Shown in pieces: positions 9,499 through 27,931 of a stretch of 30,405 bases of DNA (position 1 is the first letter of the stretch; the number at the start of each line of letters is the position of its first letter). The DNA comes from a virus, in IMG/VR virus record IMGVR_UViG_3300038701_002509, positions 1 through 30,405 of that record; one strand, given 5' to 3'. Below the pieces are notes generated by a model. The model did no database searches and was not told the origin of the DNA. It saw only the letters and a list, made by a program, of their open reading frames with translations. The position numbers and the translations under genes were made by a program.

Positions 9499-9527
9499 GT
9501 TGCTGTCACCTAGTTCGCCGCGGGGAC

Positions 9528-9908: not shown

Positions 9909-10027
9909 TCGCTATGCCCTTCCTCCGCGCCGACGGCCGGCGCTGTGTTGACGTCGAGCTCACGGTCCCCCGGCTCGAAGGCTTCCACCTCGCCGCGGAC
10001 TTCCCGCGTAACACCGGGGGCGAGTAG
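9725..10027 (+). CDS. Small helical protein of unknown function
   Basis: The product has 100 residues from GTG 9725, the first usable start after an in-frame TGA at 9704. It is helical at first (AALADALASLHRIVLQTELAALLRRGEVWEGDGRTLAEQLSQRTSQRLG) and then strand-like (VIAMPFLRADGRRCVDVELTVPRLEGFHLAADF). No Shine-Dalgarno sequence is clear before 9725, which leaves the start open. The gene body contains the whole promoter-like motif of the portal gene near its end. Its TAG stop at 10025-10027 is the first half of the TAGCGT box. Confidence 0.55.
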   Translation: MLDSPHSTHAALADALASLHRIVLQTELAALLRRGEVWEGDGRTLAEQLSQRTSQRLGMRVIAMPFLRADGRRCVDVELTVPRLEGFHLAADFPRNTGGE

Positions 10028-10037
10028 CGTCTGCCGG
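9999..10037 (+). promoter_or_regulatory. Late promoter-like motif, copy A (leaderless), before the portal gene
   Basis: ACTTC (9999-10003), 4 bases, GTAAC (10008-10012), 12 bases, TAGCGT (10025-10030), then 6 bases to the GTG of the portal gene. TAGCGT fits a TANNNT -10 box. A start site 7 bases after its last T would fall on the G of the start codon, and no Shine-Dalgarno sequence is present. Four other copies with identical internal spacing occur in the window. Confidence 0.75.
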
Positions 10038-11269
10038 TGCTCTACGACCCTCACGGCCGCCCGGTTTCCGTGGCGAGGCTCAAGCGGGAACAGGCGACGC
10101 CGGAGGCGGGGCGCCCGCTCAAGCTCGAGGATCTGGATTCGATGACGCCGGGCCGCCTGCGCAGGATCTTCAAAGCGCAGGACGAAGGCGAGATACACGA
10201 CCTCGTCGCCTACGCATCGAACGTCGAGCGGTTAGACGGGCACATCGGCGCACAGATCGGTGTTCGCAAGCTCGCGGTCTGTGCCCTTCCCTGGAAGGTC
10301 GAGCCCGTCAACGAGGACGAGCGGGGCAAGGCCATCGCCGCGGAGGTGCGCGAGCTGATCGCCGAGCCGGCCTGGTGCGACCTGATCGCGGGGCTCCAGG
10401 GGGCGGTGCTCGGCCCCTATGCGGCGGTCGAGATCCTCTGGGATACCAGCTCGAGCCAGTGGCGGCCGCGGGCGTATGAGGCCCGCGATCTCCGGTGGCT
10501 CAAGACCGTTGACGGTGTGCCCCACCTCCGCAACGCGGCCGGCGACGGTGTCGAGCCTCTCAACCCCTACGGGTGGGCGATCCATCGAACCGGCCGCTAT
10601 AGCGGGCCGATCACTCGCGACGGCCTCGCCCGGGGGCTGTCAGCGCTGCGCCTGATGAAGAGCCTAGGCGCTCGCGCGTGGCTGCAGTTCGCCGAGGTGT
10701 GCGGCTTGCCCTTCCGCCTGGTGCGCTACCCCGACGACGCGAGCACCGACGAGCAGGATCTCTACAAGGCGATGGCCCGCGATCTCGGTCTCGACGGGTG
10801 GGCCGCGATCCCGATGGGTGCAGAGGTCGAGTTCGTCGAGCCGAAGAGCGCGACCGAAGGCGACTTTCACCAGCGCCTATGCGACTGGTGCGACGCGCAG
10901 GCGAGCAAGCTGATCGTCTTCCAGACGATGACCGCCGACTCTGGGGCCTCGCGCTCTCAGAGCGAGACGCACAAGAGCATGCTCGACATGGCGATCGCCA
11001 ACGACTCGCGGAGGGTGTGCGCGACCGCCAAGGCGGCGGCGATCGACCCTTATCTCGCGCTGAATCACGGGCCGGACACGGGCCGGCTGGTCAAGGTCTC
11101 GCAGGACTGCACGCAGCCCCTAAGCGTTGACGCGCTGATCGAGACCGCGTGCAAGCTGGGGGATCGCGGGGTTCCTGTCGAGACCTCACAGCTCCTCGAG
11201 GCGCTGCGCTTGCGCCAGGCCGGCCAAGGCGAAGGGGCACTCATTCCCAAGATCGGGAACGCGGCCTAG
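10037..11269 (+). CDS. Portal protein (Mu gp29-like, DUF935)
   Basis: This 410-residue protein is recognised by several DUF935 features. MTPGRLRRIFKAQDEGEIHDLVAYASNVERLDGHIGAQIGVRKLAV lies near the N-terminus. A middle section KSLGARAWLQFAEVCGLPFRLVRYP is characteristic of these portals. FQTMTADSGASRSQSETHKSMLDMAIANDSR corresponds to the Q(T)xTxxxGxSGSxAxxxVH stretch of Mu gp29 relatives. A dodecamer would form the DNA channel at one vertex of the head and dock the terminase. Mu gp29 is somewhat longer, so the C-terminus may be trimmed. The GTG start lies directly behind the promoter-like motif copy A and has no Shine-Dalgarno sequence. Confidence 0.9.
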   Translation: MLYDPHGRPVSVARLKREQATPEAGRPLKLEDLDSMTPGRLRRIFKAQDEGEIHDLVAYASNVERLDGHIGAQIGVRKLAVCALPWKVEPVNEDERGKAIAAEVRELIAEPAWCDLIAGLQGAVLGPYAAVEILWDTSSSQWRPRAYEARDLRWLKTVDGVPHLRNAAGDGVEPLNPYGWAIHRTGRYSGPITRDGLARGLSALRLMKSLGARAWLQFAEVCGLPFRLVRYPDDASTDEQDLYKAMARDLGLDGWAAIPMGAEVEFVEPKSATEGDFHQRLCDWCDAQASKLIVFQTMTADSGASRSQSETHKSMLDMAIANDSRRVCATAKAAAIDPYLALNHGPDTGRLVKVSQDCTQPLSVDALIETACKLGDRGVPVETSQLLEALRLRQAGQGEGALIPKIGNAA

Positions 11270-11278
11270 GATGCACCG

Positions 11279-11485
11279 ATGAAGCGCCTTCCACTCACAT
11301 CAATGATCCTCGCCCTAGCCCCGCTCGCCTGCATCGGCGGCGACGAGGATCCTGCGCCCGCCAAGCCCGCCGCCGACAAGCCGGGAAAGGTCGAGCGCGT
11401 CGAGCAGGTCGACGTGACGAAAGCCGGAACCGGCACCGGCACCGGCACCGGCACCGGCACCACGCCCGAGAAGGACGGGGCGTGA
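11279..11485 (+). CDS. Small lipoprotein with Gly-Thr repeat, possible spanin/Rz1-type
   Basis: The product has 68 residues. A short signal sequence (MKRLPLTSMILALAPLAC) ends in a lipobox-like LAC with Cys18, followed by a charged Pro/Ala/Lys stretch and a Gly-Thr repeat (about 52-61). Small lipoproteins near an endolysin often serve as outer-membrane spanins, and this one lies in a group of small membrane proteins ahead of the amidase. That role is inference, since no partner inner-membrane spanin with a long coiled coil is seen. The lipobox is imperfect, with Pro at -3. ATG 11279 lies 9 bases after the portal stop without a clear Shine-Dalgarno sequence. Confidence 0.6.
   Translation: MKRLPLTSMILALAPLACIGGDEDPAPAKPAADKPGKVERVEQVDVTKAGTGTGTGTGTGTTPEKDGA
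11429..11461 (+). repeat. ACCGGC hexanucleotide repeat, 5.5 copies
   Basis: Five perfect copies of ACCGGC run from 11429 to 11458, and ACC completes half a sixth. In frame they encode alternating Gly and Thr in the small lipoprotein. The unit is 6 bp, so slippage would change length by two residues without frameshift. Confidence 0.9.
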
Positions 11486-11488
11486 ACC

Positions 11489-11734
11489 TTGCGCCGGCTC
11501 GCCACCGTGCCGCGCTGGGTTTCGCTCCCGGTGTTTGCGCTGGGGATCGCGCTCGTCAAGTGGCTGGATCTGATCGGGCGCGATGCGATGCTCGTGATCG
11601 GCACGGGGGCGAGCTTCGAGGCCTTCTATCTCTGGCGGGCCTGGGCTCGCAGGAGCGACACACCGGACGACACCACTCCATCCCTGCGGCCCGAACGGGT
11701 GACCGAAATCAGGAGGAAGGCCCTCGGGGAGTGA
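11489..11734 (+). CDS. Small membrane protein, possible holin
   Basis: The product is 81 residues if the TTG at 11489 is used; it lies 3 bases after the lipoprotein stop. Two hydrophobic segments are visible (VSLPVFALGIALVKWLDLI, about 11-29, and AMLVIGTGASFEAFYLWRAW, about 33-52). A charged soluble tail (about 53-81) follows. Size, two membrane spans, charged C-terminus and position ahead of an amidase fit a holin. Holins cannot be named from sequence alone, so this is a context call. The next gene starts in a GTGA overlap. Confidence 0.55.
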   Translation: MRRLATVPRWVSLPVFALGIALVKWLDLIGRDAMLVIGTGASFEAFYLWRAWARRSDTPDDTTPSLRPERVTEIRRKALGE

Positions 11735-11910
11735 GTGCGGGCGGGTCGGCTACGTCGTGGGATATGGTCCGCGAGGTGTCGTGCGCCGAACTCGGCCGCG
11801 CCTCCCCGCCTCCAGTCGATCCGCCTCGCCGGTCGATCCGCGTTCTCTACTTGATGTTGTTCGCCGGCATGTGCGCGGGGTTCTTCTTGCAGTCGCAAGG
11901 GGCGCTCTAA
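11731..11910 (+). CDS. Small single-span membrane protein in the lysis group
   Basis: The product has 59 residues from GTG 11731, overlapping the preceding stop (GTGA). A soluble N-terminal part of about 36 residues is followed by one membrane segment (IRVLYLMLFAGMCAGFFLQ) and a short tail. It could be an antiholin, a type III-like holin or an accessory spanin component. No family is recognised. The frame is open far upstream, but that part shadows the neighbouring genes. Confidence 0.5.
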   Translation: MSAGGSATSWDMVREVSCAELGRASPPPVDPPRRSIRVLYLMLFAGMCAGFFLQSQGAL

Positions 11911-11921
11911 GAAGCCGGGCG

Positions 11922-11960
11922 ACTTCTGCCGTAACGCTCCGGGCGCCTAGCGTCTGCCGA
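11922..11960 (+). promoter_or_regulatory. Late promoter-like motif, copy B (leaderless), before the TM peptide and amidase
   Basis: ACTTC (11922-11926), 4 bases, GTAAC (11931-11935), 12 bases, TAGCGT (11948-11953), then CTGCCG and ATG at 11960. The six bases between box and start codon are the same as in copy A. A start site at the A of ATG would give a leaderless message. Confidence 0.75.
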
Positions 11961-12049
11961 TGCATGTGCTCCGAGCGCTTGCCGCGGCCCTTCTGTGCGT
12001 CGTGGTGTTCCTCCTTCTCTTCGCTCCGGCCCCGGGGGTGGCTTGGTGA
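11960..12049 (+). CDS. 29-residue transmembrane peptide
   Basis: A 29-codon frame begins at ATG 11960, exactly where promoter copy B would start transcription. It encodes MHVLRALAAALLCVVVFLLL followed by FAPAPGVAW, which is essentially one membrane helix. Its TGA overlaps the GTG of the amidase gene (GTGA), so it is the leader of the amidase operon. It could be a small holin or antiholin, could supply a signal-anchor function, or could be a coupling leader that lets a leaderless message reach the amidase start. It resembles no named family I know. Confidence 0.6.
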   Translation: MHVLRALAAALLCVVVFLLLFAPAPGVAW

Positions 12050-12687
12050 TCGTCGTCGACCTACAGGGAGAGGCCGACCCGCAAGCGCTGGTGTCACGGG
12101 GTAAGGCCCCGCGCCGATACCGTCGAGACGTCGAGCGGGTCGACACGATCATGATCCACCAGGGCGGCGCCCGCTTCGGCCTGTCCCGCCGGGCGAAGGC
12201 CCGCATAGCGGCGGGGGGATGCGCCGTCACAGAGGCCGCGCGGCGGGGGCTGAGGTTGCCCTATCACGTCGTCGGTGTTGTCACGCCGGACGGGCGCCCG
12301 GGGGTCGCGGACGTGTGGCCGTCGTCGGTCTACACGTACGCCTCGAACGATCTGAACAGGAGGAGCATTGCGGTCGGGATCCTCGGGAACTTCCCGCGCT
12401 TCGATCGCCGATGGGATCGGCACCGTCACTCCTCGCTCGAGGATGCGGCGGCGCTCATGCTCGCAGGTGGGCAAGCGCTCGAGGTCGCGGCGGCTCGGTT
12501 CACAGGGTGCGCGCCGCTGGTGCTCACTCACTCGCAGGTCACCGACGATCGCCCGCGCTGCCCTGGCGAACACATCGTCGCCCATGTGCTCGCTCCGGCC
12601 GTGCGAGCGGGGCTGGTGCGGGTCGACCCTGACCACGCGCAGGGGGGCGGGCAAGCGTGGCCGGAGGAGTGGCGTAGACACCTATAG
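12046..12687 (+). CDS. Endolysin: PGRP-type N-acetylmuramoyl-L-alanine amidase
   Basis: This 213-residue enzyme is related to T7 lysozyme and the amidase_2 family. IMIHQGG supplies zinc ligand H38, LTHSQVTDDRPRCPGEHI supplies H162 and C172, and SSVYTYASNDLNRRSIAVGILGNF (about 93-116) is the conserved Nx5Ixxxx(G)N-type strand of the fold. The family cuts the amide bond between muramic acid and L-alanine in peptidoglycan, causing lysis. No signal peptide is present, so it needs a holin to reach the wall. The small membrane genes just before it are candidates. GTG start in a GTGA overlap. The first 30 residues are not part of the core fold. Confidence 0.85.
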   Translation: MIVVDLQGEADPQALVSRGKAPRRYRRDVERVDTIMIHQGGARFGLSRRAKARIAAGGCAVTEAARRGLRLPYHVVGVVTPDGRPGVADVWPSSVYTYASNDLNRRSIAVGILGNFPRFDRRWDRHRHSSLEDAAALMLAGGQALEVAAARFTGCAPLVLTHSQVTDDRPRCPGEHIVAHVLAPAVRAGLVRVDPDHAQGGGQAWPEEWRRHL

Positions 12688-12719
12688 GGACGCCCTCCGG
12701 TGAGAAAGATGACGCCTAG

Positions 12720-12759
12720 ACTTCTCGTGTAACGGGTGCCCTCGCTAGCGTCGTCGGCA
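12720..12759 (+). promoter_or_regulatory. Late promoter-like motif, copy C (leaderless), before the Cys-rich gene and head operon
   Basis: ACTTC (12720-12724), 4 bases, GTAAC (12729-12733), 12 bases, TAGCGT (12746-12751), then 7 bases to ATG 12759. It lies in a 71-base intergenic gap after the amidase and has no Shine-Dalgarno sequence between box and start codon. Confidence 0.75.
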
Positions 12760-13076
12760 TGACGATCGCTGCCTCGCTCCTCGCTTCTGTCATCCTCTGG
12801 TGCGGCCAGGCGTTCGCCCCGTGCGGGGCGGCGGGTGACGGCTGCTCGGGTGACTCGCACTGCTACCGCGGCAAGCTCGACGATCAGGAGATCGCGACGT
12901 GTGCCCTGGAGTGCAAGACCGACGTCGATTGTCCCGTCGTCGACGGCATCGAAACCGAGTGCTTCGACGATGCGGGATCGTATGGGTGCTTCGTGCCCTG
13001 TGAGACCGCCGCCGACTGTCTCGCCGAGGGTGCGCTCTGCGACGGCGAGCGCTGCTTGTGGGCGGTGGCTGGATAG
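12759..13076 (+). CDS. Secreted Cys-rich small protein (accessory)
   Basis: The product has 105 residues with a signal peptide (MTIAASLLASVILWCGQAFA). The mature part has 12 cysteines, enough for six disulfides, in two rough repeats of the type CxxxCxxxxDC...C...GC (TCALECKTDVDCP... and CFVPCETAADCLAEGALC). Small Cys-rich exported domains like this are common in myxobacteria, not in phage head operons. It stands first behind promoter copy C and is directly followed by the protease gene. It may be a lysogenic-conversion product, an inhibitor of envelope proteases or a lysis accessory. These roles are inference. A virion role is unlikely because cytoplasmic assembly does not support disulfides. 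Confidence 0.65.
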   Translation: MTIAASLLASVILWCGQAFAPCGAAGDGCSGDSHCYRGKLDDQEIATCALECKTDVDCPVVDGIETECFDDAGSYGCFVPCETAADCLAEGALCDGERCLWAVAG

Positions 13077-14266
13077 TGCCCGCCGCTGCTCACTTTGCGC
13101 GCTGCGCCGGCCTCTTCTGCGCCGACACCCCAGCCGAGGATCGCCCCCTTCTCTTCGAGGTCGAGGCGGATGTCGGCGGGGGTGATGGTGTGCCGGAGTG
13201 GCTCAACATCTTCCCGCCGCTCGACGGCGAAGGGCTCTGCAGAGCTCGCGACGGGCGAGTCGTCGCCTTTCCGGAGGGGTTCGGCCCCGTCCTGCGACGC
13301 ACGCAGGAGGCCCTCGAGAAGTACGGCCCCGGCGCGGTCGACCTTGATCACGAGCTCTATGGATGGCCGGGCGGCGGCGAGGCCAGCGGGTGGATGACCG
13401 CGATCGAGGAGCGGGCCGGCGAAGGAATCTTCGCTCGCTTCGAGCCCCTTCCGCGGGGGGCCGCGGCCGTCGAGAGCAAGACCTATCGCTACACGTCGGC
13501 TGTTCTCGACGCCGATCGGGTCGTTCAATACGACGAGGACGGATGGCCCCGAGGAGTCCTGCTCGTCGCCAAAGAGTTTTTCGGCTTCGGCCTGACCAAC
13601 ATCCCCGCGATGCGGGTGCGCAGCATGTTCTCGCAGGGCGCAGGAGAAGACGACACGATGAAGACCGCCACGATCACAGCCCTGCTTTCGATGCTCGACC
13701 TCGGCGAGGACGCCACGCCGGAGCAGATCAAGACGGCCGCGCAGGCGAGGTTCGCCGCCGCCGCGTCCCCCGACCCCGTCGAGTTCGTCCCACGTAGCGA
13801 ACTACGGTCGGCCCGCGAGGAGCTCGCCAGATACAAGCCCGCCTACAACGCAGCCCTCGAGGCCTTCGAGGTCGAGGGCGTGGGCCCCGACCGCGACGCC
13901 GAGGCGGTCGACAAGGACCTCGCCGAGAGGCTCGCCGAACACCGCACCGCGAAGCTCTACAGCGCGATCGACGAGGCTGTCGCCGACGGCAAGCTACCCC
14001 CCGCCGCGGTCGAGGGGCAGAGGGCCGCCTACGCCGCGATGCCGAACGGCCTCGAAGTCTTCGAGAGGGCGATGGAGCACATGCCCCAGGTGCTCGACCG
14101 GAGCCCGCGTGCTGCCGGTGACCCTCCGCCGAAGGACCCCGCGACGCTGTCGGATAGCCGACCGCCGGCCGGGGTGGATCCGCGGATCTGGAAGCTCTCT
14201 CGCGAGATCAGAGATCCGCAGGAGCTCGCCGAGAAGATCCGCGAGCTGCCCCCGGCTAGCGCCTGA
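13076..14266 (+). CDS. Prohead protease with scaffold domain (Mu I-like)
   Basis: The product has 396 residues from GTG 13076, which shares one base with the preceding TAG; an in-frame GTG at 13058 is the alternative. The N-terminal half carries Mu protein I features: VDLDHELYGWPGGGEASGWMTAIEER, then IFARFEPLPRGAAAVESKTYRYTSAVL, then GFGLTNIPAM. These resemble the aDxxH...aGWi...yRyxSPvf...lTNxPA pattern. The C-terminal half is a helical Glu/Arg/Ala region ending in a proline-rich and helical tail, as expected of a scaffold. The protease would cleave scaffold and itself during head maturation. An internal start at 13658 probably makes the scaffold alone. Confidence 0.85.
   Translation: MPAAAHFARCAGLFCADTPAEDRPLLFEVEADVGGGDGVPEWLNIFPPLDGEGLCRARDGRVVAFPEGFGPVLRRTQEALEKYGPGAVDLDHELYGWPGGGEASGWMTAIEERAGEGIFARFEPLPRGAAAVESKTYRYTSAVLDADRVVQYDEDGWPRGVLLVAKEFFGFGLTNIPAMRVRSMFSQGAGEDDTMKTATITALLSMLDLGEDATPEQIKTAAQARFAAAASPDPVEFVPRSELRSAREELARYKPAYNAALEAFEVEGVGPDRDAEAVDKDLAERLAEHRTAKLYSAIDEAVADGKLPPAAVEGQRAAYAAMPNGLEVFERAMEHMPQVLDRSPRAAGDPPPKDPATLSDSRPPAGVDPRIWKLSREIRDPQELAEKIRELPPASA
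13658..14266 (+). CDS. Nested scaffold protein start inside the protease gene (Mu Z-like)
   Basis: An in-frame ATG at 13658 follows AGGAG (13642-13646) with a workable spacing. It falls exactly at the junction between the protease domain and the helical domain (MKTATITALLSMLDLGEDATPEQIKTAAQARFAAA). A separate product of 202 residues would equal the scaffold. In Mu, gene Z makes the scaffold from an internal start of gene I, so the arrangement is expected. The start is inferred from the Shine-Dalgarno sequence and the domain boundary. Confidence 0.5.
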   Translation: MKTATITALLSMLDLGEDATPEQIKTAAQARFAAAASPDPVEFVPRSELRSAREELARYKPAYNAALEAFEVEGVGPDRDAEAVDKDLAERLAEHRTAKLYSAIDEAVADGKLPPAAVEGQRAAYAAMPNGLEVFERAMEHMPQVLDRSPRAAGDPPPKDPATLSDSRPPAGVDPRIWKLSREIRDPQELAEKIRELPPASA

Positions 14267-14308
14267 TCGAACCCCACGCCCTCGAACATCACACCAGGAC
14301 CCCGACAC

Positions 14309-15001
14309 ATGGCCCTCACGCAAGCCCGACAGCTCTCGATCGTCAACTTCCCCCGCATCTGGCGCACGTTCGGTGTCGCCGACTCTGCCAAGCTCTACGC
14401 AGGGGGGATGGTCGGCCGCAACGCGTCCGGCTACCTGGTGCGAGCTCACGAGGCCGAGGTCGTGCTCGGGTTCGCCACCGACACCGCGGACAACACCGAC
14501 GGCGCCGACGGCGACCTCGAGCTGGAGGTCGACAGCGGGATCGCGAACTACGAGAACAGCGCGGGCGGCGAGGCCGTCGCGATCGAGGACATCGGCGCCG
14601 ACTGTTACGCCGTCGACGACGAGACCGTCGCGAAGACGGCCGGCGGGACGGCGCAGGTAACGGATGCCACACTCACGTTCAACGGGACCGACACAACCGG
14701 CCTCACGATCGCCGGCAAGCTTGTGACCGTGGTCTGCGACACCGACGCGGATACGACTGTGACCGCCCTCTATGACGCCCTCGTGGCGCATGAGCTGGCT
14801 GAGGACTTCACGTTCACGGACATGACCACCAAGGTGCGGATCGCCAAGAAAACCGGCGGGTCGTTCTCGATCGTCCCCTACAAACCCGCGACCGCGACGT
14901 TTGTGATCGCGGAGGTGACTCCGGGCGAGGCGCCCGACCGGCCTCGTGCCGGCAAGGTCCACAAGATCGAGGGTGATCAAGTCTACGTCGACTTTCGCTA
15001 G
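14309..15001 (+). CDS. Head decoration-type protein with an inserted domain
   Basis: The 230-residue product follows an AGGA Shine-Dalgarno sequence. The first part (LYAGGMVGRNASGYLVRAHE...VVLGFATDTADNTDGADGDLELEVDSGIANYENSAGGEAVAIEDIGADCYAVDDETVAKT) and the last part (RPRAGKVHKIEGDQVYVDF) together resemble small phage head decoration/DUF2190-like proteins located before Mu-type capsid genes. Between them, about residues 113-208, lies an extra domain of alternating strands and one helix (ATLTFNGTDTTGLTIAGKLV..., TVTALYDALVAHELAEDF..., VRIAKKTGGSFSIV). The protein probably binds the capsid surface and stabilises it. The insert may be surface-exposed. Confidence 0.65.
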   Translation: MALTQARQLSIVNFPRIWRTFGVADSAKLYAGGMVGRNASGYLVRAHEAEVVLGFATDTADNTDGADGDLELEVDSGIANYENSAGGEAVAIEDIGADCYAVDDETVAKTAGGTAQVTDATLTFNGTDTTGLTIAGKLVTVVCDTDADTTVTALYDALVAHELAEDFTFTDMTTKVRIAKKTGGSFSIVPYKPATATFVIAEVTPGEAPDRPRAGKVHKIEGDQVYVDFR

Positions 15002-15008
15002 CCCTTGT

Positions 15009-15069
15009 CGAGATCGACCCCTAGCCCGCCCCGGTTCACCGTGGCGGGCTTAGGGGGTGCAAGCGATGG
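15009..15069. repeat. Hairpin-containing direct repeat, copy 1 (upstream of the capsid gene)
   Basis: A 61-bp sequence, repeated at 16023-16084 with one base fewer and otherwise identical. It contains a long hairpin: left arm CCCCTAGCCCGCC at 15018-15030, right arm GGCGGGCTTAGGGG at 15043-15056 with one bulged T, and a 12-base loop. No T-run follows the stem. It lies between the decoration and capsid genes, so it may act as an attenuator, RNA-processing site or mRNA stabiliser. It ends with GCAAGCGATGG, the start context of the gene at 16081. Here that ATG opens only a 22-codon frame that runs into the capsid gene. Confidence 0.85.
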
Positions 15070-15099
15070 GCGATAGCCCCCTACCAGGAGACCGAATAG

Positions 15100-16011
15100 A
15101 TGGCCCTCGAAATGGACAACTACCAGGCGCATGACCGGCTTGTGAGCACCAAGCTCGCAGAGATGCTCGCGCGCGAAAAGTACGGGGCCGAGTCGGGCGC
15201 GCTGTACAGCGACCTCGACAGCGACGACACCGTCGTCGACTTCCGTTTCGTGCTCAAGCAGCACGGAATGAAGAAGCTGCGGGGAAACTTCGAGAAGCGC
15301 ACCCAGCTCGAGAAGTCGATCGTCATCGGCACGGATGAGTTCTACGACGAGATCACGATGCGGCTGCGTGATCTCAAGAAGAAGCGCTCGGCGAGCTTCC
15401 AGCTCGACGCGCAGGGGATGCCGGAGCAGGTCCCGAGCTTCATCGACGTGAAGGTCGCTTCGCTGCTCAAGGAATCCGGGGCCGCCTTCACGGGCTCGAC
15501 CTTCGACGGCAAGCCCTATTTCTCGAAGACGCATCCTCGGTTCTCCGGGAAGGGTACCCAGAGCAACCTTGACGACGGCGGCGGCGGAGACGGTTACTGG
15601 TACCTCTTCGACACCAAGAAAATGGCGCCGGTGATCTGGCTCTGGTTCGCGCGTCCGAACACCGACAAGTTCGGCCCGGAGAGCGAGTGGGCTCGCGACA
15701 ATCAAGAGGTGCGCTGGAGGCTGATGGCAGACTGCGGCTTTGGCATGGGCGTCTGGTACTACGGCTACGCCAGCAACAAGCCGCTGACGAAGGCCAACCT
15801 ACAGGCCGCCAAGCTCGCCATGATGTCGTTGAAGAACGACGCGAAGACCGACGGCGAGGATGCGCAGATGGGCATCAAGCCGAACCTGCTCGTGACCGGC
15901 GCGGCGAATGACCTCACAAGGCTCGAGCTGATGAACTCGACGATCGTCGGCGGCGACAGCAACGTCATGCAAGGCGCCTTCGAGTCGATGACGTTCTCGT
16001 ACCTGCCCTAA
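15100..16011 (+). CDS. Major capsid protein (Mu gpT-like)
   Basis: The product has 303 residues behind a good Shine-Dalgarno sequence (CCAGGAG). The segment TFDGKPYFSKTHPRFSGKGTQSNL (about 134-157) is the hallmark DGxxFFsxxHp...N of Mu gpT capsid proteins. The order of elements after it (LANLQAAKLAMMSLKNDAKTDG-type helix, MGIKPNLLVTGAANDLTRLELMNS) matches the A-domain part of the HK97 fold. The segment VIWLWFARPN...WRLMADCGFGMGVWYYGYASNKPL corresponds to the usual part before that helix. The protein would form the icosahedral shell after scaffold removal. It is bracketed by two copies of a hairpin-bearing repeat, suggesting separately controlled expression of the most abundant protein. Confidence 0.88.
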   Translation: MALEMDNYQAHDRLVSTKLAEMLAREKYGAESGALYSDLDSDDTVVDFRFVLKQHGMKKLRGNFEKRTQLEKSIVIGTDEFYDEITMRLRDLKKKRSASFQLDAQGMPEQVPSFIDVKVASLLKESGAAFTGSTFDGKPYFSKTHPRFSGKGTQSNLDDGGGGDGYWYLFDTKKMAPVIWLWFARPNTDKFGPESEWARDNQEVRWRLMADCGFGMGVWYYGYASNKPLTKANLQAAKLAMMSLKNDAKTDGEDAQMGIKPNLLVTGAANDLTRLELMNSTIVGGDSNVMQGAFESMTFSYLP

Positions 16012-16022
16012 GCGGCAGCCGC

Positions 16023-16084
16023 CGAGATCGACCCCTAGCCCGCCCCGGTTCACCGGTGGCGGGCTTAGGGGGTGCAAGCGATGG
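16023..16084. repeat. Hairpin-containing direct repeat, copy 2 (downstream of the capsid gene)
   Basis: The second copy has 62 bp and begins 11 bases after the capsid stop. Its left arm is 16032-16044 and its right arm 16058-16071. The one-base difference lies in the loop, which here can form an extra CCGG/CCGG pairing. The copy ends in the ATG of the gp36-like gene, so hairpin and start codon are part of the same repeated unit. Confidence 0.85.
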
Positions 16085-17539: not shown

Positions 17540-17546
17540 GGCCCCC

Positions 17547-17747
17547 ATGAGCAAGATCCCGAGAAATGGCGAGCGAGTACTCGTCGACCTGTCCCGCGGC
17601 ACTCCGCCGTTTAGGCGCCCCGACAGGGTCGGCGCCGACGGCAAGGGCGCTCACCTGGAGGGGCCGACGCGCGTTCGCTGGTCGAAGTTTTGGACCGCCC
17701 GGCTGCTTGCCGGCGAGGTCGAGGTCGCGACAGAAGGCGAGGGCTAG
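17547..17747 (+). CDS. Mu gp38-like small protein (DUF2635)
   Basis: The product has 66 residues starting at ATG 17547, 7 bases after the previous stop. VGADGKGAHLEGPTRVRWSKFWTARLLAGEVEVA (about 28-61) matches the DUF2635 pattern of a lone domain with xLPxxGxxVxxxxYWxRRLxxGDV. It lies immediately before the sheath gene, as in Mu. Its molecular role in tail assembly is not known. Confidence 0.7.
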   Translation: MSKIPRNGERVLVDLSRGTPPFRRPDRVGADGKGAHLEGPTRVRWSKFWTARLLAGEVEVATEGEG

Positions 17748-17750
17748 GCC

Positions 17751-19196: not shown

Positions 19197-19223
19197 CCCC
19201 CCTAGCTCGCGCAGGAGTCCGCA

Positions 19224-19592: not shown

Positions 19593-19595
19593 GCG

Positions 19596-20224: not shown

Positions 20225-22288
20225 GTGTTCGGCGTTGAGTACGTGGTGAGGCTGATAGATCGGGCTACCGCGCCCGCTCGTCGCATCACGGACAACTTCG
20301 CCGACATCAACAATGCGGTGTCGAGCTTCGACAAGGCGAACAAGACCGCCGCGAAGATCGATGCGATCGCCGACAAGTTCGACAACATGGGGAAGATGGG
20401 GCGGAGGGCGGTCGAGGGGCCGCTCTCGGTCGCAGCGTCCCTCGAGGAGCAGCTCTCGGTCGTTCAGGCGAAGAGCGGAGCCACGGCCGAGCAGCTCAAT
20501 CAGATCAAGGCCAGAGCGCGCGAGCTCGGCGCGAACACCAAGCACAGCGCACTCGAGGCGGCCGGCGGCTTCGAGGTCCTCTCGGCGGCCGGCCTCGGGG
20601 TCGAGGAGCAGCTCAACACCATCGACCCCGTGTTGACCCTCGCCACGGCGGGGTTTGTGAAGATCGACAAGGCGGCCAAGCTCAACACCGACACGCTCGG
20701 GGCGTGGGGGCTCGGCGTCGAGCATGCGGCGATGGTCACCGATCAGCTCGTCGGAGCTGCGAACACGTCAAAGCAGACGATGGAGACCCTCGGGCAGTCG
20801 CTCAAGTATGCCGGTCCGGCGGCGAGCGAGGCCGGTGCGGGGATTGCCGAGGTGCTCGCGATGCAAGGCCAGCTCGCGAGGTTCGGCGTTACGGGGGGGC
20901 AGGCCGGGCGAGGCCTGCGGGCGATGTTCAAGCGCCTGCAGGACCCCACCAAGACCGGCAAGAAGATGCTTCGGCGCCTGCATGTCGAGACGCTCGACGG
21001 CGACGGAAACCTGCGCAGCATGGGCGACATTCTCGCCGACCTTGATCGATCACTCGACGCGAAGTTCGGCAAGGGCAAGGGGGGAGGCAAGCGCAAGCGG
21101 ATCATGGGCGAGCTCTTCGGCTCCGCAGGGGCCGACTCTGCGGCGAAGCTGATGGGTTCCGCGGTAGATGGCTCGCTGCAGAAGATGGTCGCGGACATCG
21201 AGAGCTACGACGCGAAGGCGGCTGCAGCTCTCGCCGGAGCGAACACCAAAGGTGCGATGGCGGAGGCCAAGAGCGCCTTTGAAGAGCTGCAGATCGTGGC
21301 CGGCGACGAGCTCCTGCCCACGGCAACCGAGCTGCTCAAGACCTTCACGGGCCTCGCCAGGGCTACCGGCGCGTGGGCGCAGAAGAACACAGGGCTGGTG
21401 CGCACGGTGATGCTCCTCGCCGGAGGGCTCGCGCTGATCGGCGCCGTCATGGCTCCGGTGTTGAAGGGTGTAGCCGTCATGGTGAGGATCGCCCCCTACA
21501 TCAAGACGGCTTTCGCGACGCTGAGGACCGGCGTGCTGCTCCTCTCGGCCTCCTTCCGTACCCTCGCCGCCTCGCTCTTCGCCAACCCGATCACGTGGGT
21601 TGTGGCGGGGATCGTCGCGCTGATCGCCGCGGGCTATCTGCTCTGGCGCAACTGGGATCAGGTGGGTGAGTTCTTCCGTGGTCTCTGGGATCGGATGCCG
21701 GGGCCCGTGCAGTCGGCGCTCCGGCTGATCACCGCGCCGATACGGATGCTCGTCGCCGGGGCCCGGTGGCTCGGCGAGAACTGGGGCGAGGTGTGGGGCT
21801 GGATCCGCGAGACCGTCGGCGGTGTGGCGCTCTACCTCGGCGCAAGGTTTGAGCAGCTCACCGGATATCCCGCCGACATCCTCGCGGTGTGGCGCCCGAT
21901 CGGGGAGTTCTTCTCCGAACTGTGGGAGGGGATCGCCTCGACCGTGACGGAGTCGCTCGGCGAGATCGTTCGCATGTTCGTCCGCGTCGGTGAAGAGATC
22001 GAGGACTTCGAGCGCAGCGTGCCGGAGTGGATGACCGGACGCGATCGCGTCGTCGCGGGCGGGGCCTTCGAGCAGGCGCGGGCGATCCAGGCGGCGGCGA
22101 ACGGCGGCGGCTACTCACCTCAGCAGCTCGCCGAGGGCGCGAGCGGCCTCGCCTCGACCTTCGGCGGATCGTTGCGGATCACCCTCGCGAGCGAGGACGG
22201 GAGCACGCCGACGATCGCCTCGAGCGAGTCGAACACGGGCGGCAACTCTGGGATCACGCTCGACACCGGCTATCAGGGGGCTGCATGA
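20225..22288 (+). CDS. Tail tape measure protein
   Basis: The product has 687 residues and starts at GTG 20225, adjacent to the chaperone extension stop. The N-terminal 330 residues (RITDNFADINNAVSSFDKANKTAAKI..., LEEQLSVVQAKSGATAEQLNQIKARARELGANTKHSALEAAGGFEVLSAAG...) are the TP901-type tape measure domain. Two hydrophobic segments (about 395-425 and 451-475) would insert in the host membrane. The C-terminal part has further amphipathic helices (GLWDRMPGPVQSALRLI). By the usual rule of about 0.15 nm per residue, the tail would be near 100 nm. The ATGA overlap with the next gene supports co-translation. Confidence 0.9.
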   Translation: MFGVEYVVRLIDRATAPARRITDNFADINNAVSSFDKANKTAAKIDAIADKFDNMGKMGRRAVEGPLSVAASLEEQLSVVQAKSGATAEQLNQIKARARELGANTKHSALEAAGGFEVLSAAGLGVEEQLNTIDPVLTLATAGFVKIDKAAKLNTDTLGAWGLGVEHAAMVTDQLVGAANTSKQTMETLGQSLKYAGPAASEAGAGIAEVLAMQGQLARFGVTGGQAGRGLRAMFKRLQDPTKTGKKMLRRLHVETLDGDGNLRSMGDILADLDRSLDAKFGKGKGGGKRKRIMGELFGSAGADSAAKLMGSAVDGSLQKMVADIESYDAKAAAALAGANTKGAMAEAKSAFEELQIVAGDELLPTATELLKTFTGLARATGAWAQKNTGLVRTVMLLAGGLALIGAVMAPVLKGVAVMVRIAPYIKTAFATLRTGVLLLSASFRTLAASLFANPITWVVAGIVALIAAGYLLWRNWDQVGEFFRGLWDRMPGPVQSALRLITAPIRMLVAGARWLGENWGEVWGWIRETVGGVALYLGARFEQLTGYPADILAVWRPIGEFFSELWEGIASTVTESLGEIVRMFVRVGEEIEDFERSVPEWMTGRDRVVAGGAFEQARAIQAAANGGGYSPQQLAEGASGLASTFGGSLRITLASEDGSTPTIASSESNTGGNSGITLDTGYQGAA

Positions 22289-23532
22289 GCTACCGCGAGA
22301 GACATCGGCAGGCGGAGCTCGGCGGAATCCCTCTGCTCGTGCGGAAGATCGAGGAGGTTGTCGGTCGGCGCACGACGTCGGTCGAGTATCCAGACCGCGA
22401 TCGCCCCTCCTCTCAGGACCACGGGCGGATGGCGAAGCGATGGACGGTCTCGATCGTCGTCGTCGGCGAGAACTACGACCTCGACCTCGCCGCGCTGCGC
22501 ACCCTCGCGGAGACCAAGGGGCCTCACCGCTGGATCCACCCGCTCACGGGCGAGCTGCAGGTAGCGCTCGAGGGCGGCCTGCGCTCGTCTCTGGACTACG
22601 GCGCGATCGGGCAGAGCGAGATCAACTTTCAGATCGTCGAGAGTGGCGACGACGAGGCGCAGCTCGTCGTCCTTCCCCAGACCGGCGCCGAGCTGATCGA
22701 CGCGGCCGACGCGATGGGCGTCGCGGTAGGGCTCAACCTCGCAGAGGAGCTCTCGGTCTCCTCCGGGGGCACCGCATGGGCGCGAGCGAATGCGCAGATC
22801 CTCTCGGCTGGTGTTCAGGCCGGTGTTCTCTCGGCGCAGGTGTCGGCGCTCGCCAACAAGCCGAGCTCGGCCGCGGTGTTGATCCGCGGGTTCCAGGAGA
22901 CGGCGAGCGATCTCGTCGCGTCGCCCGTCGATCTCGTCGCGTCGGTCCGCGAGCTCTCGGCCGCGATCTTCGGCCCCGTAGCGGACGCAGAGACCGCCGA
23001 GGTCGACGAGACAGGCGAGGTTGATGTCGTCGCCGCGGGCGCAAGGGCGCGGGCGCTTGTGGGGGCTATGAGGGCCGCCACGGAGTGGACCCCGCCGGAA
23101 CAGGGCGAGCCGAGCGACGCCGAGGAGGTGAACAACGACGGCGCGATCGAGCAGATGATCGCGCTCGCCAACGTCGCCGAGGTGGTCACGGTCCTGTCAC
23201 TCCTCACGCTCGACGCGGCCGACACGGCCGTCGACGTTCTCGAAGCTGTGAGCGCGGCGATCGACGAGCAGCTCGAGGCGCCGTGGACCGGCGACGAGCT
23301 GTATAACGCGGCCGTCGACCTCAAAGCCGCGACCTCGGCGCACTTCCGCGACCTCGCAGGCAGGCTCCCGTCGGTCACCAGCTACACGCCGGCCGACACC
23401 GTGCCGGCCTTCCTCCTGGCCTTCCGTCTCTATGGCGACGTCGAGCGCGAGCCCGAGATCGTGGCTCGCAACACCGTGCAGGATCCGGCCCGCGTTCCGG
23501 CGGGGAGAGAGCTGCAGGTGCTAGGTGCCTAG
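22285..23532 (+). CDS. DNA circularisation/tail protein (Mu N-like)
   Basis: The product is 415 residues from ATG 22285, in an ATGA overlap with the tape measure stop. The N-terminal 130 residues (SYRERHRQAELGGIPLLVRKIEEVVGRRTTSVEYPDRDRPSSQDHGRMAKRWTVSIVVVGENY) show the DNA_circ_N pattern of Mu gpN: FxGvpF...GRR...EfPxRd.p...D.Gr..r.fxi...v.G.dY. The rest is a long Ala/Glu-rich helical region. Despite the family name, Mu gpN is a tail/baseplate protein near the tube end. Position between TMP and the P-like gene matches Mu. Confidence 0.85.
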   Translation: MSYRERHRQAELGGIPLLVRKIEEVVGRRTTSVEYPDRDRPSSQDHGRMAKRWTVSIVVVGENYDLDLAALRTLAETKGPHRWIHPLTGELQVALEGGLRSSLDYGAIGQSEINFQIVESGDDEAQLVVLPQTGAELIDAADAMGVAVGLNLAEELSVSSGGTAWARANAQILSAGVQAGVLSAQVSALANKPSSAAVLIRGFQETASDLVASPVDLVASVRELSAAIFGPVADAETAEVDETGEVDVVAAGARARALVGAMRAATEWTPPEQGEPSDAEEVNNDGAIEQMIALANVAEVVTVLSLLTLDAADTAVDVLEAVSAAIDEQLEAPWTGDELYNAAVDLKAATSAHFRDLAGRLPSVTSYTPADTVPAFLLAFRLYGDVEREPEIVARNTVQDPARVPAGRELQVLGA

Positions 23533-24589
23533 GGTCACAACGGTGTTCGGCGGGAAGAGGCTCGAGGGATGGACCTCGATCACCGTGAAGAGCTCGCTCG
23601 ACGAGGGCGCGGACTCGTTCGAGGTGGGGATCACGAGCAAGCTCGCGGGGAGCCGCGACGCGCTCCTCGTCGCGGACGGTATGCCCGCGGTGGTCGAGGT
23701 CGACGGCCAACCCATGATCACGGGCTGGATCAACGGCATGAGGCGATCGACGATCGCGACCTCGAGGTCGATCACCGTTGCGGGGAGGAGCTCGGCCGGC
23801 GACCTGATCGACTGCTCCGTTACGACTCGCACGACGTGGCGCAAGCGGCCGGCGTCGGAGATCGCGACGCAGCTCTGCGCGCCCTACGGGATCCCGGCCG
23901 CGATCGAGGTGCCGGCCGACGACCCCCTGCCCTCCTTCCGCACGCAGACCGGCGAGAAGGTCTTCGACGCGCTCAAGCGCCTGGGGAGCGAGCTCGGCGG
24001 GCGGTGGATCTCCCGGCGCGACGGCGGGATCCGCCTGATCCGCTCGATCGGGACAAAGCGCGCCCGCGCCGTGATCGCCCGCGGCTACAACGTCGTCGCC
24101 TCCAGCCTCACAGAGCGCAGCGACGAGCGTTTTAGCTCGTACTACTTCCGATCGCAGCTCGCGACGAGCGACGGCCTGAACGGCGACGACGCGGCCAACC
24201 TCGAGAGGAGGGTCGACGACGCGGGGGTCGCTCGTCACCGGCCCCTGCTCCTGCAGGCCGACGGCCAGGGCGGCGCGAAGGCGCTGCAGCGCATGGCCGA
24301 GTGGGAGCGCACGACGAGGGCGGGGTCGTCGGTGTCCGCCTCCTACACGATCATCGACCCGGCCGACGCCTTCCGCACGTGGGAGTCCTCGGCGGGCGTG
24401 CTCTGGGCTCCTGGGATCCTCGTCGACGTCGACGACGACCTCGAGGGCGCTACGGGGACATGGGCGGTGCGTACGGTCTCGCTTCATCGTCGGGGCGACC
24501 GCATCGCCGCCGATCTCGAGCTGTGTCACCCGGACGCGCTCACGCTCGAGCCGCCAAAGCCGAGGAAGGCGGGCGAGGCCCTATGGTGA
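23525..24589 (+). CDS. Baseplate hub protein (Mu P / gp44-like)
   Basis: The product has 354 residues from GTG 23525, which overlaps the end of the N-like gene. VFGGKRLEGWTSITVKSSLDEGADSFEVGITSK (about 6-38), then VEVDGQPMITGWINGMRRSTIATSRSITVAGRSSAGDLIDCSV (about 56-98), are characteristic of the Mu gpP/gp44 hub family. This is similar to P2 gpD and T4 gp27: G.....W.....r.i...a..F.l......, G..v..Gyi......y......i.v.GRs...DLvD. The hub would connect tube and spike. The next gene starts at the last codons. Confidence 0.88.
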   Translation: MPRVTTVFGGKRLEGWTSITVKSSLDEGADSFEVGITSKLAGSRDALLVADGMPAVVEVDGQPMITGWINGMRRSTIATSRSITVAGRSSAGDLIDCSVTTRTTWRKRPASEIATQLCAPYGIPAAIEVPADDPLPSFRTQTGEKVFDALKRLGSELGGRWISRRDGGIRLIRSIGTKRARAVIARGYNVVASSLTERSDERFSSYYFRSQLATSDGLNGDDAANLERRVDDAGVARHRPLLLQADGQGGAKALQRMAEWERTTRAGSSVSASYTIIDPADAFRTWESSAGVLWAPGILVDVDDDLEGATGTWAVRTVSLHRRGDRIAADLELCHPDALTLEPPKPRKAGEALW

Positions 24590-25236
24590 GCCCGATCCGG
24601 AGAATGCTCGAACCCCTCGAGCGACGCGTCCGGGGCATGGTCCGGCGCTTCGTCCTCGCGTCGCTCTCCGACGACGGCGCCGCGGCGGTGACCGGCAAGG
24701 GGCTCGCCGAGGACTTCGACGGCGCCGAGCTCCTCGAGCAATACGGGTTCACGTCGCGGCCGGAGTCCGGCGCCGACGGCGTGAGCTTCGCCGTCAACGG
24801 GAATCAGGACAACACGGTGGCCTTTGTCTACGACAGGCGCCACCGGCCGAAGGGGCTCGAGGGGGGCGACGCCTGCATGTACTCAAAGGGCGGCAACAAG
24901 ATCACCGTCGCCGCCGACGAGACGATTACGATCGAGAATGAGAGCGGCGCACGGATCACAATGACGCCGGCCGGGAACGTAGAGATCGAGGCGGTCGCAT
25001 CGATCAAGCTCGACGGCGACACGACGCTCGCCCTAAACCCCGACCTAAAAGCCTACTCGGGAGCGCTGGCGGGGTTCTGGGGGACGTTTGTGACGTGGGC
25101 GACGGCCGCAACGGGTGTGTGGGCTGACGACTTGATCGAGCTCAAGGGCCAAGTCTCTGTACCAGCGGGGACCGCTCTAACGACGCTGGTCCCCCAGATC
25201 GCGGCCACACCAGGCGCCGCGAAGGGGAAGGGGTAG
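24583..25236 (+). CDS. Baseplate spike/assembly protein (Mu gp45-like)
   Basis: The product has 217 residues from ATG 24583, or from the adjacent GTG 24586 that overlaps the hub stop. The region AEDFDGAELLEQYGFTSRPESGADGVSFAVNGNQDNTVAFVYDRRHRPKGLEGGDACMYSKGGNKITVAADETITIENESGARITMTPAGNVEIEA matches Mu gp45: ev.....E...pYGf.s.P..Gae.l.....G...n.v.....d.r.RP..l..Ge...Y...G. The spike-like C-terminus is rich in short strands. It is the membrane-piercing tip in Mu-like phages. No clear HxH iron motif is visible at the C-terminus, unlike classic spikes. Confidence 0.88.
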   Translation: MVSPIRRMLEPLERRVRGMVRRFVLASLSDDGAAAVTGKGLAEDFDGAELLEQYGFTSRPESGADGVSFAVNGNQDNTVAFVYDRRHRPKGLEGGDACMYSKGGNKITVAADETITIENESGARITMTPAGNVEIEAVASIKLDGDTTLALNPDLKAYSGALAGFWGTFVTWATAATGVWADDLIELKGQVSVPAGTALTTLVPQIAATPGAAKGKG

Positions 25237-25239
25237 GAC

Positions 25240-25698
25240 GTGCTCGCTCTACGTTGGGATGACGCCGAAGGGCACGCGCAGCTCGTCGAAGGCGACGCGG
25301 GCCTCGTCGAAGACTACGGCCTCGAGACATCGGTGCTCGTCTCGCTCTTCACCGATCGCCGGGTGAGCGAGGTCGAGGCCGAGCGCGTGCCGGGCGGAGA
25401 TCGCCGCGGATGGTGGGCGGACAGCGAATCCCTGCGCCTCGAGGGCGACGCCTCGCCGGTGATCGGCTCGCGGCTTTGGCTGCTCCAGGGTCGGCCGTTC
25501 ACGGATGCCGCCCCCGTGGTCGCTGAGGAGTACATCCGCGAGGCGCTCGCGTGGATGGTCGAGGCCGGCGCCGTCGGAAAGATCGACGTGACGGCGGTCG
25601 TGCTCTCGCCGCGACGGCTCGGCCTCGGGGTCACGCTCTACCGGCCCCGCGATGACAAGTCGATCGCCTTCCGCAAGCTCTGGGAAATGACCGTCTAA
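25240..25698 (+). CDS. Baseplate wedge protein (Mu gp46-like)
   Basis: The product has 152 residues and starts at GTG 25240, three bases after the gp45 stop. LETSVLVSLFTDRRVSEVEAERVPGGDRRGWWADSE (about 28-63) shows the gp46 pattern: L.tav...LfTD.ra..dd...g....RGwWgd. Then GSRLWLLQGRPFTDA fits GSRLWLL.R.K. The protein resembles T4 gp25 in role, joining sheath and baseplate. The gp47-like gene follows after one base. Confidence 0.88.
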   Translation: MLALRWDDAEGHAQLVEGDAGLVEDYGLETSVLVSLFTDRRVSEVEAERVPGGDRRGWWADSESLRLEGDASPVIGSRLWLLQGRPFTDAAPVVAEEYIREALAWMVEAGAVGKIDVTAVVLSPRRLGLGVTLYRPRDDKSIAFRKLWEMTV

Positions 25699-25699
25699 A

Positions 25700-26791
25700 A
25701 TGCCCTGGTATCGCCCACCTCTCAAGACCTTGATCAAGCGCGTCGTCTCCGATGTAGAGACCCGCCTCGAGTCGCAGGCCGCACGCCTGCGGCCCCACGT
25801 CGAGAACGCGCTCGCTCGCGCCATGGCTGGCGTGTCGCATGGCCTGCACGGGGCGATCGCCTATCTCGCCACACAGGTGATCTGGGATCGCTGTGACGAC
25901 GAGTTCCTCGTGCGGTGGGCGTCGATCTTCGGTGTCTACCGCAACCCCGCAGTGCGAGCCGAGGGCGACACGATCCTGATCACCGGCACGCCCGGCACCC
26001 TGATCCCCGCCGGCACGCGATGGGCTCGCGACGATGGGATCGAGTTCGAGGTCGCGGCGGCGACGATCCTATCGCAGAGCCCCGAGAACATCTCGATCAA
26101 CGCGGTCGAGGCCGGCTCGGCGGCTAACGGTCCCGTCGGCCTGGCGGCCTCGCTCACGGCGCCGATCGCCGGCATCGACTCGAAAGGGTCGCTGTCGGTC
26201 GTCGACAGCGGCCGCGACGAGGAGACCTTCGACAGCCTGCGCGCTCGCTTCCTCCAGCGCCTGCGCAACCCACCAGCCGGCGGCGGGCCGGGGGACTACA
26301 TCCGATGGGCCAAGGCGAGCTCGTCGCCGACGCCTACCCGGGTGTGGGAGGGCGGCAAGGTGCCTAAGCCCGGCTGGGTGACGCTGTGGATGGTCGACGA
26401 CTGCAAAGTCGCGCCCGCGATCGGGATGGGGGATATCGAGCGTGCGCAAGTGCTGGAGCACATTGAGACCCTGGCGCCGCTCCACATGCACGACCGGATC
26501 GTCGTCGAGACGCCGACGCTCACAGCGTTTCCGGTCGAGGTGGCGATCTCCCCGTTCACGCCGACGATGGTCGCCGCGGTAGAGAAGGCGGTCGACGAGG
26601 AGGTGCGCCGCCGAGCTGAGACCGGCGAGGGTGGTCGCGTGTTCCGCAAGGGCTGGCTCGAGACCGCTTGCGGCAAGGTTCCAGGGCTGCGGTATCACGT
26701 GATGACGGTCCCCGCTGGGGATACGGTGTTCGCAGAGGGGGAGATACCGGTTCACGTAACCGCAAACGATCTAGCTGTGACGCAGGCCTAG
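25700..26791 (+). CDS. Baseplate J-like protein (Mu gp47-like)
   Basis: The product has 363 residues with ATG 25700. MPWYRPPLKTLIKRVVSDVETRL at the start, then VIWDRCDDEFLVRWASIFGVYRNPAVRAEGDTILITGTPGTLIPAGTRWARDDGIEFEV and GPVGLAASLTAPIAGIDSKGSLSVVDSGRDEETFDSLRARFLQRLRNPPAGGGPGDYIRWA, are classic baseplate_J (Mu gp47) stretches. DEexxxRxxxxxxxxxxGxxxxYxxWA is the hallmark. It forms the baseplate wedge. Its last codon TAG (26789-26791) overlaps head to head with the stop of the minus-strand accessory gene in the palindrome CTAG. Confidence 0.9.
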   Translation: MPWYRPPLKTLIKRVVSDVETRLESQAARLRPHVENALARAMAGVSHGLHGAIAYLATQVIWDRCDDEFLVRWASIFGVYRNPAVRAEGDTILITGTPGTLIPAGTRWARDDGIEFEVAAATILSQSPENISINAVEAGSAANGPVGLAASLTAPIAGIDSKGSLSVVDSGRDEETFDSLRARFLQRLRNPPAGGGPGDYIRWAKASSSPTPTRVWEGGKVPKPGWVTLWMVDDCKVAPAIGMGDIERAQVLEHIETLAPLHMHDRIVVETPTLTAFPVEVAISPFTPTMVAAVEKAVDEEVRRRAETGEGGRVFRKGWLETACGKVPGLRYHVMTVPAGDTVFAEGEIPVHVTANDLAVTQA

Positions 26792-27834
26792 TCGAACGAC
26801 TCGAACACGACACGCTCCCATGTGTCGCCGTCCCCGCTCATGAAGTAGTCACCACATCGACACCCCGTCTTTGCGAGCGAGTCGCTGTCGATCGTCCACG
26901 AGGCGCGAGGGACGTCGGTGTCAAAGCCGGTGATCGTCATGTCGCAACCGCTGTCACCATCGAACGGGGCCAGCGCGCCCGGCAGGAAGCCCCAGCCAAG
27001 CGGGCTACGGTACCACTTCGAGCCGTTCGCGTCGTGCGTCGCACCGATTGGTGTCAGCTCGAGCACCTCCGCCCTCGGGGCGTGGGCGATGGCCCGGATC
27101 GTCGTCGAGCCCACCTTGCGGCAGGCGAGCGCGAGGTGATCGCCGCTGCAGGCCTCGACGATGTCGCTGTATGGATCGGTCGCGTTGTAGGGGGTGCTAA
27201 AGCACTCCTCCCACTTCACGAGGGCGCCCTCGTCGACGTCGACGGCAGGCCCGAAGCTCTCCCATCGCTTCGGCGTGCAGTCGTCGTCACACAGCTCCCC
27301 GCCGTCGCAGTCCTCCTCGCCGTTGATGATCCCGTCGCCGCAGCTCGCGGCCTTGCACGTCGTCAAGCAATCGTCGCTGTCGTCGGCGTTTCCGTCGTCG
27401 CACTCCTCGCCGGCCGCTTCGTTGGCGTAGCCGTCCCCGCAGGCGGGCAAGCTGCAGTCGGCATCGCACAGGACCGTGTCCTCGCCGTCGTCGCACTCCT
27501 CGGGCTCCTCGGCGAAGCCGTCCCCGCAGACCGGCCCTCCGGTTGTCGTTGGGTCTCCGGTCGATGTGCTCGACGTCGTCGGATCGCCTGTCGTTGTCGG
27601 GTCGTCGGTCGTCGAGCTCGTCGAGCCCGTCGTCGGATCGCCTGTCGTTGTCGGGTCGTCGGTCGTCGAGCCCGTCGTCGTCGAGCCTGTCGTCGGCGCC
27701 TCGGTCGTCGAGCCCGTCGTCGTCCCCTCCTCAGTCGTGCCGGTGTGGCCGAGCCCCTCCGTAGGGCCGTCGGTGTCGCCCGTAGGCGGTTCGCAGGCGA
27801 GAACAGCGGCGAGGAGCACTAGGCGGCGCATCAT
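26788..27834 (-). CDS. Myxobacterial-type Cys-rich lipoprotein (accessory gene, moron)
   Basis: This 348-residue protein is transcribed against all its neighbours. The ATG at 27834 gives MMRRLVLLAAVLACEPPTG, a lipoprotein signal with LAC as the modified Cys. Residues about 20-100 form a Thr/Ser/Gly/Asp/Pro linker (TTTGSTTEAPTTGS...). Residues about 101-190 hold three Cys-rich units of the CGDG...EECDDGN...C...C type known from myxobacteria. The C-terminal 150 residues (for example LALACRKVGSTTIRAIAHAPRAEVLEL, GSKWYRSPLGWGFL, GCDMTITG, CRCGDYF) form a domain of unknown function. It is anchored to a membrane and exported, so it is not a virion part. It probably alters the lysogen surface. Its stop overlaps the gp47-like stop by CTAG. 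Confidence 0.85.
   Translation of the reverse strand: MMRRLVLLAAVLACEPPTGDTDGPTEGLGHTGTTEEGTTTGSTTEAPTTGSTTTGSTTDDPTTTGDPTTGSTSSTTDDPTTTGDPTTSSTSTGDPTTTGGPVCGDGFAEEPEECDDGEDTVLCDADCSLPACGDGYANEAAGEECDDGNADDSDDCLTTCKAASCGDGIINGEEDCDGGELCDDDCTPKRWESFGPAVDVDEGALVKWEECFSTPYNATDPYSDIVEACSGDHLALACRKVGSTTIRAIAHAPRAEVLELTPIGATHDANGSKWYRSPLGWGFLPGALAPFDGDSGCDMTITGFDTDVPRASWTIDSDSLAKTGCRCGDYFMSGDGDTWERVVFESFD
27575..27671. repeat. 43-bp perfect direct repeat in the lipoprotein linker
   Basis: The 43-bp sequences at 27575-27617 and 27629-27671 are identical and 54 bp apart, which is 18 codons. They encode the same TTDDPTTTGDPTTGS-type linker segment. Perfect identity indicates recent duplication, and in-frame repeat loss or gain could vary the linker length. 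Confidence 0.9.
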
Positions 27835-27890
27835 GTGAGCCTGGGTATCACGCGAGATCGCGCAGGCCAAGCCGCGGAGATCTCGGCCAG

Positions 27891-27931
27891 ACTTCCGCCG
27901 TAACGCTCCGCGCGAGTAGCGTGCGGCGCAG
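27891..27931 (+). promoter_or_regulatory. Late promoter-like motif, copy E (leaderless), before the tail fibre block
   Basis: ACTTC (27891-27895), 4 bases, GTAAC (27900-27904), 12 bases, TAGCGT (27917-27922), then 8 bases to GTG 27931. It lies in the 96-base gap between the minus-strand lipoprotein gene and the rightward fibre block, which restarts transcription after the inserted gene. No Shine-Dalgarno sequence is seen. Confidence 0.75.

Follow-up and report, generated by a model that had tools for sequence, protein, structure and literature searches.

The analyzed DNA (30,405 bases; hereafter, the window) is a 30.4-kb virus fragment in which the left genome end is missing. The encoded proteins match a Mu-like myovirus and include TerL, portal, head protease, major head, neck, sheath, tube, and tape measure proteins, together with hubs, gp46/47/48-like proteins, and a fibre. 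No transposase was recognised among the proteins of this left-truncated fragment. The region 433–1371 encodes an N6-methylase-like protein, judged from an NPPF motif noticed on visual inspection and from weak Pfam matches, and the gene next to that of TerL (6088–6792) encodes an AlkB-like 2OG-Fe(II) oxygenase. Judged by sheath, portal, and TerL, the closest sequenced phages were Mu-like phages of Proteobacteria, with about 30–37% identity, and a megablast search of 50,697 phage records found no near DNA relative.

Five copies of a 33-bp element are located on the + strand of the window, each at a gene boundary and each followed by the first gene of a transcription unit that, from its gene content, would be expressed late; distances to start codons are counted from the last T of the element. 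Copy A (9998–10030) lies 6 nt before GTG 10037 of the portal gene (10037–11269, +; phrog_113, E = 5.5e-72), and the TAG in its box terminates the ORF before it, as the preliminary description of this DNA had noted. The portal ORF encodes 410 aa, compared with about 520 aa in the relatives, and the C-terminal part is absent. Copy B (11921–11953) lies 6 nt before ATG 11960, which opens a 29-aa hydrophobic ORF (11960–12049, +; called from the sequence). The TGA of this ORF overlaps the GTG of an amidase-like lysis gene (12046–12687, +; weak Amidase_2 match to PF01510, E = 0.0012, below the cut-off) by 4 nt (GTGA), and the same 4-nt overlap was found at several other junctions in the window. Copy C (12719–12751) lies 7 nt before ATG 12759 of a gene for a Cys-rich protein whose N terminus resembles a signal peptide (12759–13076, +; ORF and translation), for which PHROG and Pfam profile searches gave no family match. 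The second gene of this unit encodes the head maturation protease (13058–14266, +; phrog_328, E = 4.9e-28), and the remaining head genes follow.

Copy D (19595–19627) lies 7 nt before ATG 19635 of the tail assembly chaperone gene (19635–20093, +; PF10109, E = 3.1e-7), which precedes the tape measure and baseplate genes. Copy E (27890–27922) lies 8 nt before GTG 27931 of a gp80-like gene (27931–28317, +; PF23140, E = 6e-16), followed by gp48 and the fibre. The block names given previously (portal, lysis, head, tail, and fibre) were thus roughly right, but the last block opens with the gp80-like gene and gp48 before the fibre, and in the lysis block, which does contain the amidase-like gene, the start codon at copy B belongs to the overlapping 29-aa ORF. 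Elsewhere in the head region, the major head protein gene (15100–16011) is flanked by near-perfect direct repeats of 61–62 nt (15009–15069 and 16023–16084). Both repeats fold into strong predicted hairpins (−39.9 and −44 kcal/mol, with z values near −3.3) that lack a trailing T-run; they may act in mRNA processing or stability, or as an attenuator.

The composite ACTTC-N4-GTAAC-N12-TAGCGT occurs five times in the window, at 9999, 11922, 12720, 19596, and 27891, and all five copies are exact and share the internal spacing that the preliminary description had reported. In dinucleotide shuffles, 0.02 matches were expected by chance even when up to three mismatches were allowed, and no shuffle reached five. 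Further copies with one to four mismatches were found on neither strand of the window. The G directly 5′ of ACTTC, a base overlooked earlier, is invariant in all five copies and brings the number of fixed positions to 17; the 33 bp include an unconserved stretch of 12 nt. By themselves, TAGCGT (7 occurrences against 6.8 expected) and TAGCGTC (5 against 3.2) were not enriched in the window, which indicates that the signal is the entire composite. None of the copies lies inside a gene body. An RNA-structure reading of the motif was ruled out by the lack of excess folding, and an Rfam search returned nothing; the absence of unusual folding indicates that the motif acts as DNA. The five promoter-like elements are a real and strongly non-random set.

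The position of the elements relative to the start codons is likewise constrained. With 40 called starts, the chance of a start 6–8 nt 3′ of a site is 0.4% per site, and the chance of finding it at five of five sites is about 1e-12 for called starts and 7e-6 for any ATG, GTG, or TTG. A Shine-Dalgarno (SD) sequence is absent before all five motif-linked starts, so that the earlier claim of nearby start codons without SD held at every copy; no in-frame alternative start lies upstream of any of them. SD sequences precede 6 of 12 other homology-supported, non-overlapping genes and none of the five (p = 0.07), a contrast that is weak when taken alone. In each copy, an in-frame stop closes the reading frame within the motif or just 5′ of it. 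In copies A, B, and E, this stop belongs to the motif itself; in copy B it is the box TAG, and in copy E the TAA within GTAAC, that ends the frame leading into the start codon. Two of the five starts are GTG (10037 and 27931), a point against the leaderless reading.

When the start codon is taken as +1, TAGCGT covers about −12 to −7, GTAAC −29 to −25, and GACTTC −39 to −34, with the centres of GACTTC and GTAAC about 9.5 bp apart. In leaderless genes, the −10 motif lies about 6–7 nt before the ORF (PMC12340547), and in leaderless promoters the box lies about 12 bp from the start, counted from its first T (PMC3160421). The present spacing of 6–8 nt between a TANNNT box and the start in all five copies matches both values and agrees with the previous reading of TAGCGT as a −10 box at leaderless distance. 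No consensus sigma-70 −35/−10 site was found in 9000–28500, and no TTGACA-like hexamer lies 16–18 nt before the −10 box.

To place the elements in the context of related phages, we compared the window with other Mu-like loci. Single-protein searches found no close relatives, and profile searches gave 238 related loci with about 30–39% identity. These loci (3.49 Mb) contained no match to the motif with up to three mismatches in the 17 fixed positions, and the motif was also absent from seven further relatives found through the tape measure protein. In the related loci, the gap between TerL and portal had a median of −1 nt and exceeded 100 nt in 5 of 147 cases, the ORF after the tube gene lay no more than 12 nt away in 33 of 40 cases, and gp47 and gp48 were neighbours in 26 of 29; these figures derive from automatic ORF ends and homology ranges, and single values are rough. 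In the window, where intergenic gaps are short, the TerL–portal junction is open, with copy A and 1.7 kb of small genes between the two, the tube–chaperone junction is a 42-nt gap filled by copy D, and the gp47–gp48 junction holds an antisense gene, copy E, and the gp80-like gene. Three junctions that are closed in most relatives are thus open here, and three of the five copies lie where the usual Mu-like gene order was split.

Exact matches in the public viral and cellular collections were all single. In viral_contigs, the exact motif matched 11 times, once per contig, in DNA of 33–52% GC, and none of these matches had a start codon 6–8 nt downstream, so they are chance matches. A relaxed 14-base pattern was found in at least 118 stretches, with one match each among those listed. 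In the cellular genome_contigs, the exact composite gave 18 single matches in 85,000 genomes, with no Myxococcota in the titles. None of the matched public contigs listed carried multiple copies. The absence from relatives and the single matches elsewhere point to a code specific to the lineage of the phage that carries five copies, which, at the sequence level, suggests a phage-encoded recognition factor. A de novo search for multi-copy promoters in the relatives found no comparable set; this search also missed the window's own motif, because longest-ORF starts were used, and is therefore uninformative. In several other Mu-like contigs (L073, L103, L194, L195, and L025), genes are preceded by repeated TTTAAA-N5/6-TTTAAA blocks, possibly the sites of another regulator.

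The antisense gene just upstream of copy E (26788–27834, −; PF13948 and TIGR02232 above cut-off, supported by the coding score) lies within the tail region and encodes a lipoprotein-like protein of 348 aa with DUF4215/TIGR02232 cysteine repeats. It has no relative in the phage collection and looks like a lysogenic cargo gene. Since copy E lies 3′ of this gene, unit E requires its own promoter and a restart of transcription. TIGR02232 is a disulfide-repeat family named after myxobacteria. This gene and the second secreted-looking Cys-rich protein, encoded from 12759, suggest that the host is probably a member of Myxococcota.

Taken together, we consider it somewhat probable (roughly 55%) that the five motifs are leaderless late promoters of Mu-like genes in a phage with a probable Myxococcota host, used by host RNA polymerase together with a phage activator. 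TAGCGT would serve as the −10 element, and its distance to the start codon would set the beginning of transcription on the start codon or within about two bases of it, so that ribosomes would begin the first gene of each unit on an mRNA that has no leader. In place of the absent sigma-70 −35 box, the promoters would have GACTTC and GTAAC, which together span about −39 to −25 and are spaced by roughly a helical turn. With their centres about 9.5 bp apart, the two blocks would face the same side of the DNA across the −35 region, where the predicted contact is an activator or region 4 of a sigma factor. A late activator encoded by the phage is proposed to bind GACTTC/GTAAC, recruit host RNA polymerase, and co-activate the five units, as C does in Mu, and the lack of consensus sigma-70 sites is as expected for activator-dependent promoters. 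Downstream genes would be reached via translational coupling or through their own SD sequences. The preliminary description had proposed a promoter motif common to the five late units; the shared promoter-like element stands, and its activity, the leaderless 5′ ends, and the late timing are predictions.

The site of Mu C is described as a dyad, and GACTTC-N4-GTAAC is not a clear one. In Mu, C activates four late promoters (Plys, PI, PP, and Pmom) with non-consensus −10 and −35 elements (PMC4461284). Like the late promoters of Mu, the predicted ones here have a weak −35 and precede lysis, head, and tail blocks in a phage whose morphogenesis genes are Mu-like in content and follow the Mu order, and coordinated control is proposed for them. 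The set here appears to differ from the Mu late promoters in sequence; it has five near-identical copies, which stand partly elsewhere (before the portal gene, before the tail chaperone gene, and after the antisense gene), with the −10 box at leaderless distance. Neither a C homologue nor any other Mor/C-family activator or further regulator was recognised among the proteins of the window, which lacks the left genome end.

Bacterial leaderless promoters of Deinococcus, mycobacteria, and Streptomyces (PMC12340547, PMC3898074, PMC3160421) likewise have TANNNT 6–8 nt before the start and neither an SD sequence nor a sigma-70 −35 box; here, in contrast, GACTTC-N4-GTAAC and the inner GCG are also invariant, and the elements would belong to a phage late regulon. 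In mycobacteria, an ATG or GTG at the mRNA 5′ end suffices for initiation, and leaderless small ORFs are coupled to the next gene by a 4-nt overlap tetramer (PMC4633059). Mostly leaderless middle and late mRNAs occur in the Thermus phage phiYS40 (reviewed in PMC3594737), as predicted here; that phage and its host are different, and its transcripts were mapped, whereas those considered here are predicted.

The identity of the reader is the point on which the leading alternative differs. The preliminary description had pointed to a resemblance to promoters of extracytoplasmic function (ECF) sigma factors, and an ECF-type sigma of phage or host could read the leaderless late promoters with GTAAC as −35, CGT as −10, and GACTTC as an accessory site. 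The resemblance stands in part: all five copies contain GTAAC-N15-CGT, which was found 6 times in the window against 0.26 expected, in line with AAC at −35 and CGT at −10 as general ECF contacts (PMC4153023), and a sigma-70 −35 is absent. Every one of the six bases in TAGCGT is fixed, more than the three that TANNNT demands; this may point to a stricter requirement on the CGT part by whatever reads it, and an ECF sigma would account for the invariant CGT and for the unvarying centre of the box. It gives no reason, however, for the constancy of GACTTC and TAG, and no sigma factor, ECF or other, was recognised among the window proteins. The rarity of the exact composite in cellular genomes, with no Myxococcota among the titles, makes it unlikely that a host regulon uses precisely this code. 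We therefore regard the ECF reading as a minority possibility, and a phage late activator working with host sigma-70 is favoured.

The elements could also be late promoters whose transcripts have 5′ ends further upstream or are processed, their closeness to the start codons reflecting compact packing. The short intergenic gaps agree with this, and the evidence for leaderless starts comes from sequence only; yet the 6–8 nt spacing in five of five copies, the lack of an SD sequence for a leader to use, and the in-frame stops within or just 5′ of every copy make it unlikely. A long, fixed, bipartite element adjoining gene starts in a single orientation might instead be an operator or another protein-binding site, for example of a lysogeny repressor, and not the promoter itself. 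An operator needs no fixed TANNNT box at leaderless distance, and the units require promoters, for which 9000–28500 offers no other consensus site, so that this explanation appears very unlikely. Near-identical multi-copy promoters are typical of phage-encoded RNA polymerases, and AR9 has late promoters with a short motif in two parts (PMC5312081). The present element, however, has its unconserved 12 nt within the 33 bp and no conserved initiation sequence after the element in the five copies compared, Mu uses host RNA polymerase (PMC4461284), and the window proteins include no recognised polymerase; promoters of a phage polymerase are thus highly improbable.

Multi-copy late promoters and leaderless promoters are both of known kinds, and what was not found in the collections searched is this sequence code and its predicted use before five late units, which amount to almost the entire late programme. 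A literature search found no study of leaderless initiation in Myxococcota. More tentatively, and with some doubt, the 33-bp element may be read by a phage-encoded protein from a family not yet described, either a regulator or a sigma factor, that makes a Mu-like late programme leaderless, with Myxococcota ribosomes translating leaderless virion mRNAs at a high level. The five natural candidate promoters with one fixed code would allow direct tests of the regulator and of leaderless translation. If the favoured reading of leaderless, activator-dependent late promoters is true, a phage with a probable Myxococcota host begins its virion and lysis units with leaderless mRNAs, and a Mu-type late operon that has been opened or has gained cargo genes would stay under one control through the same promoter copy at each restart.
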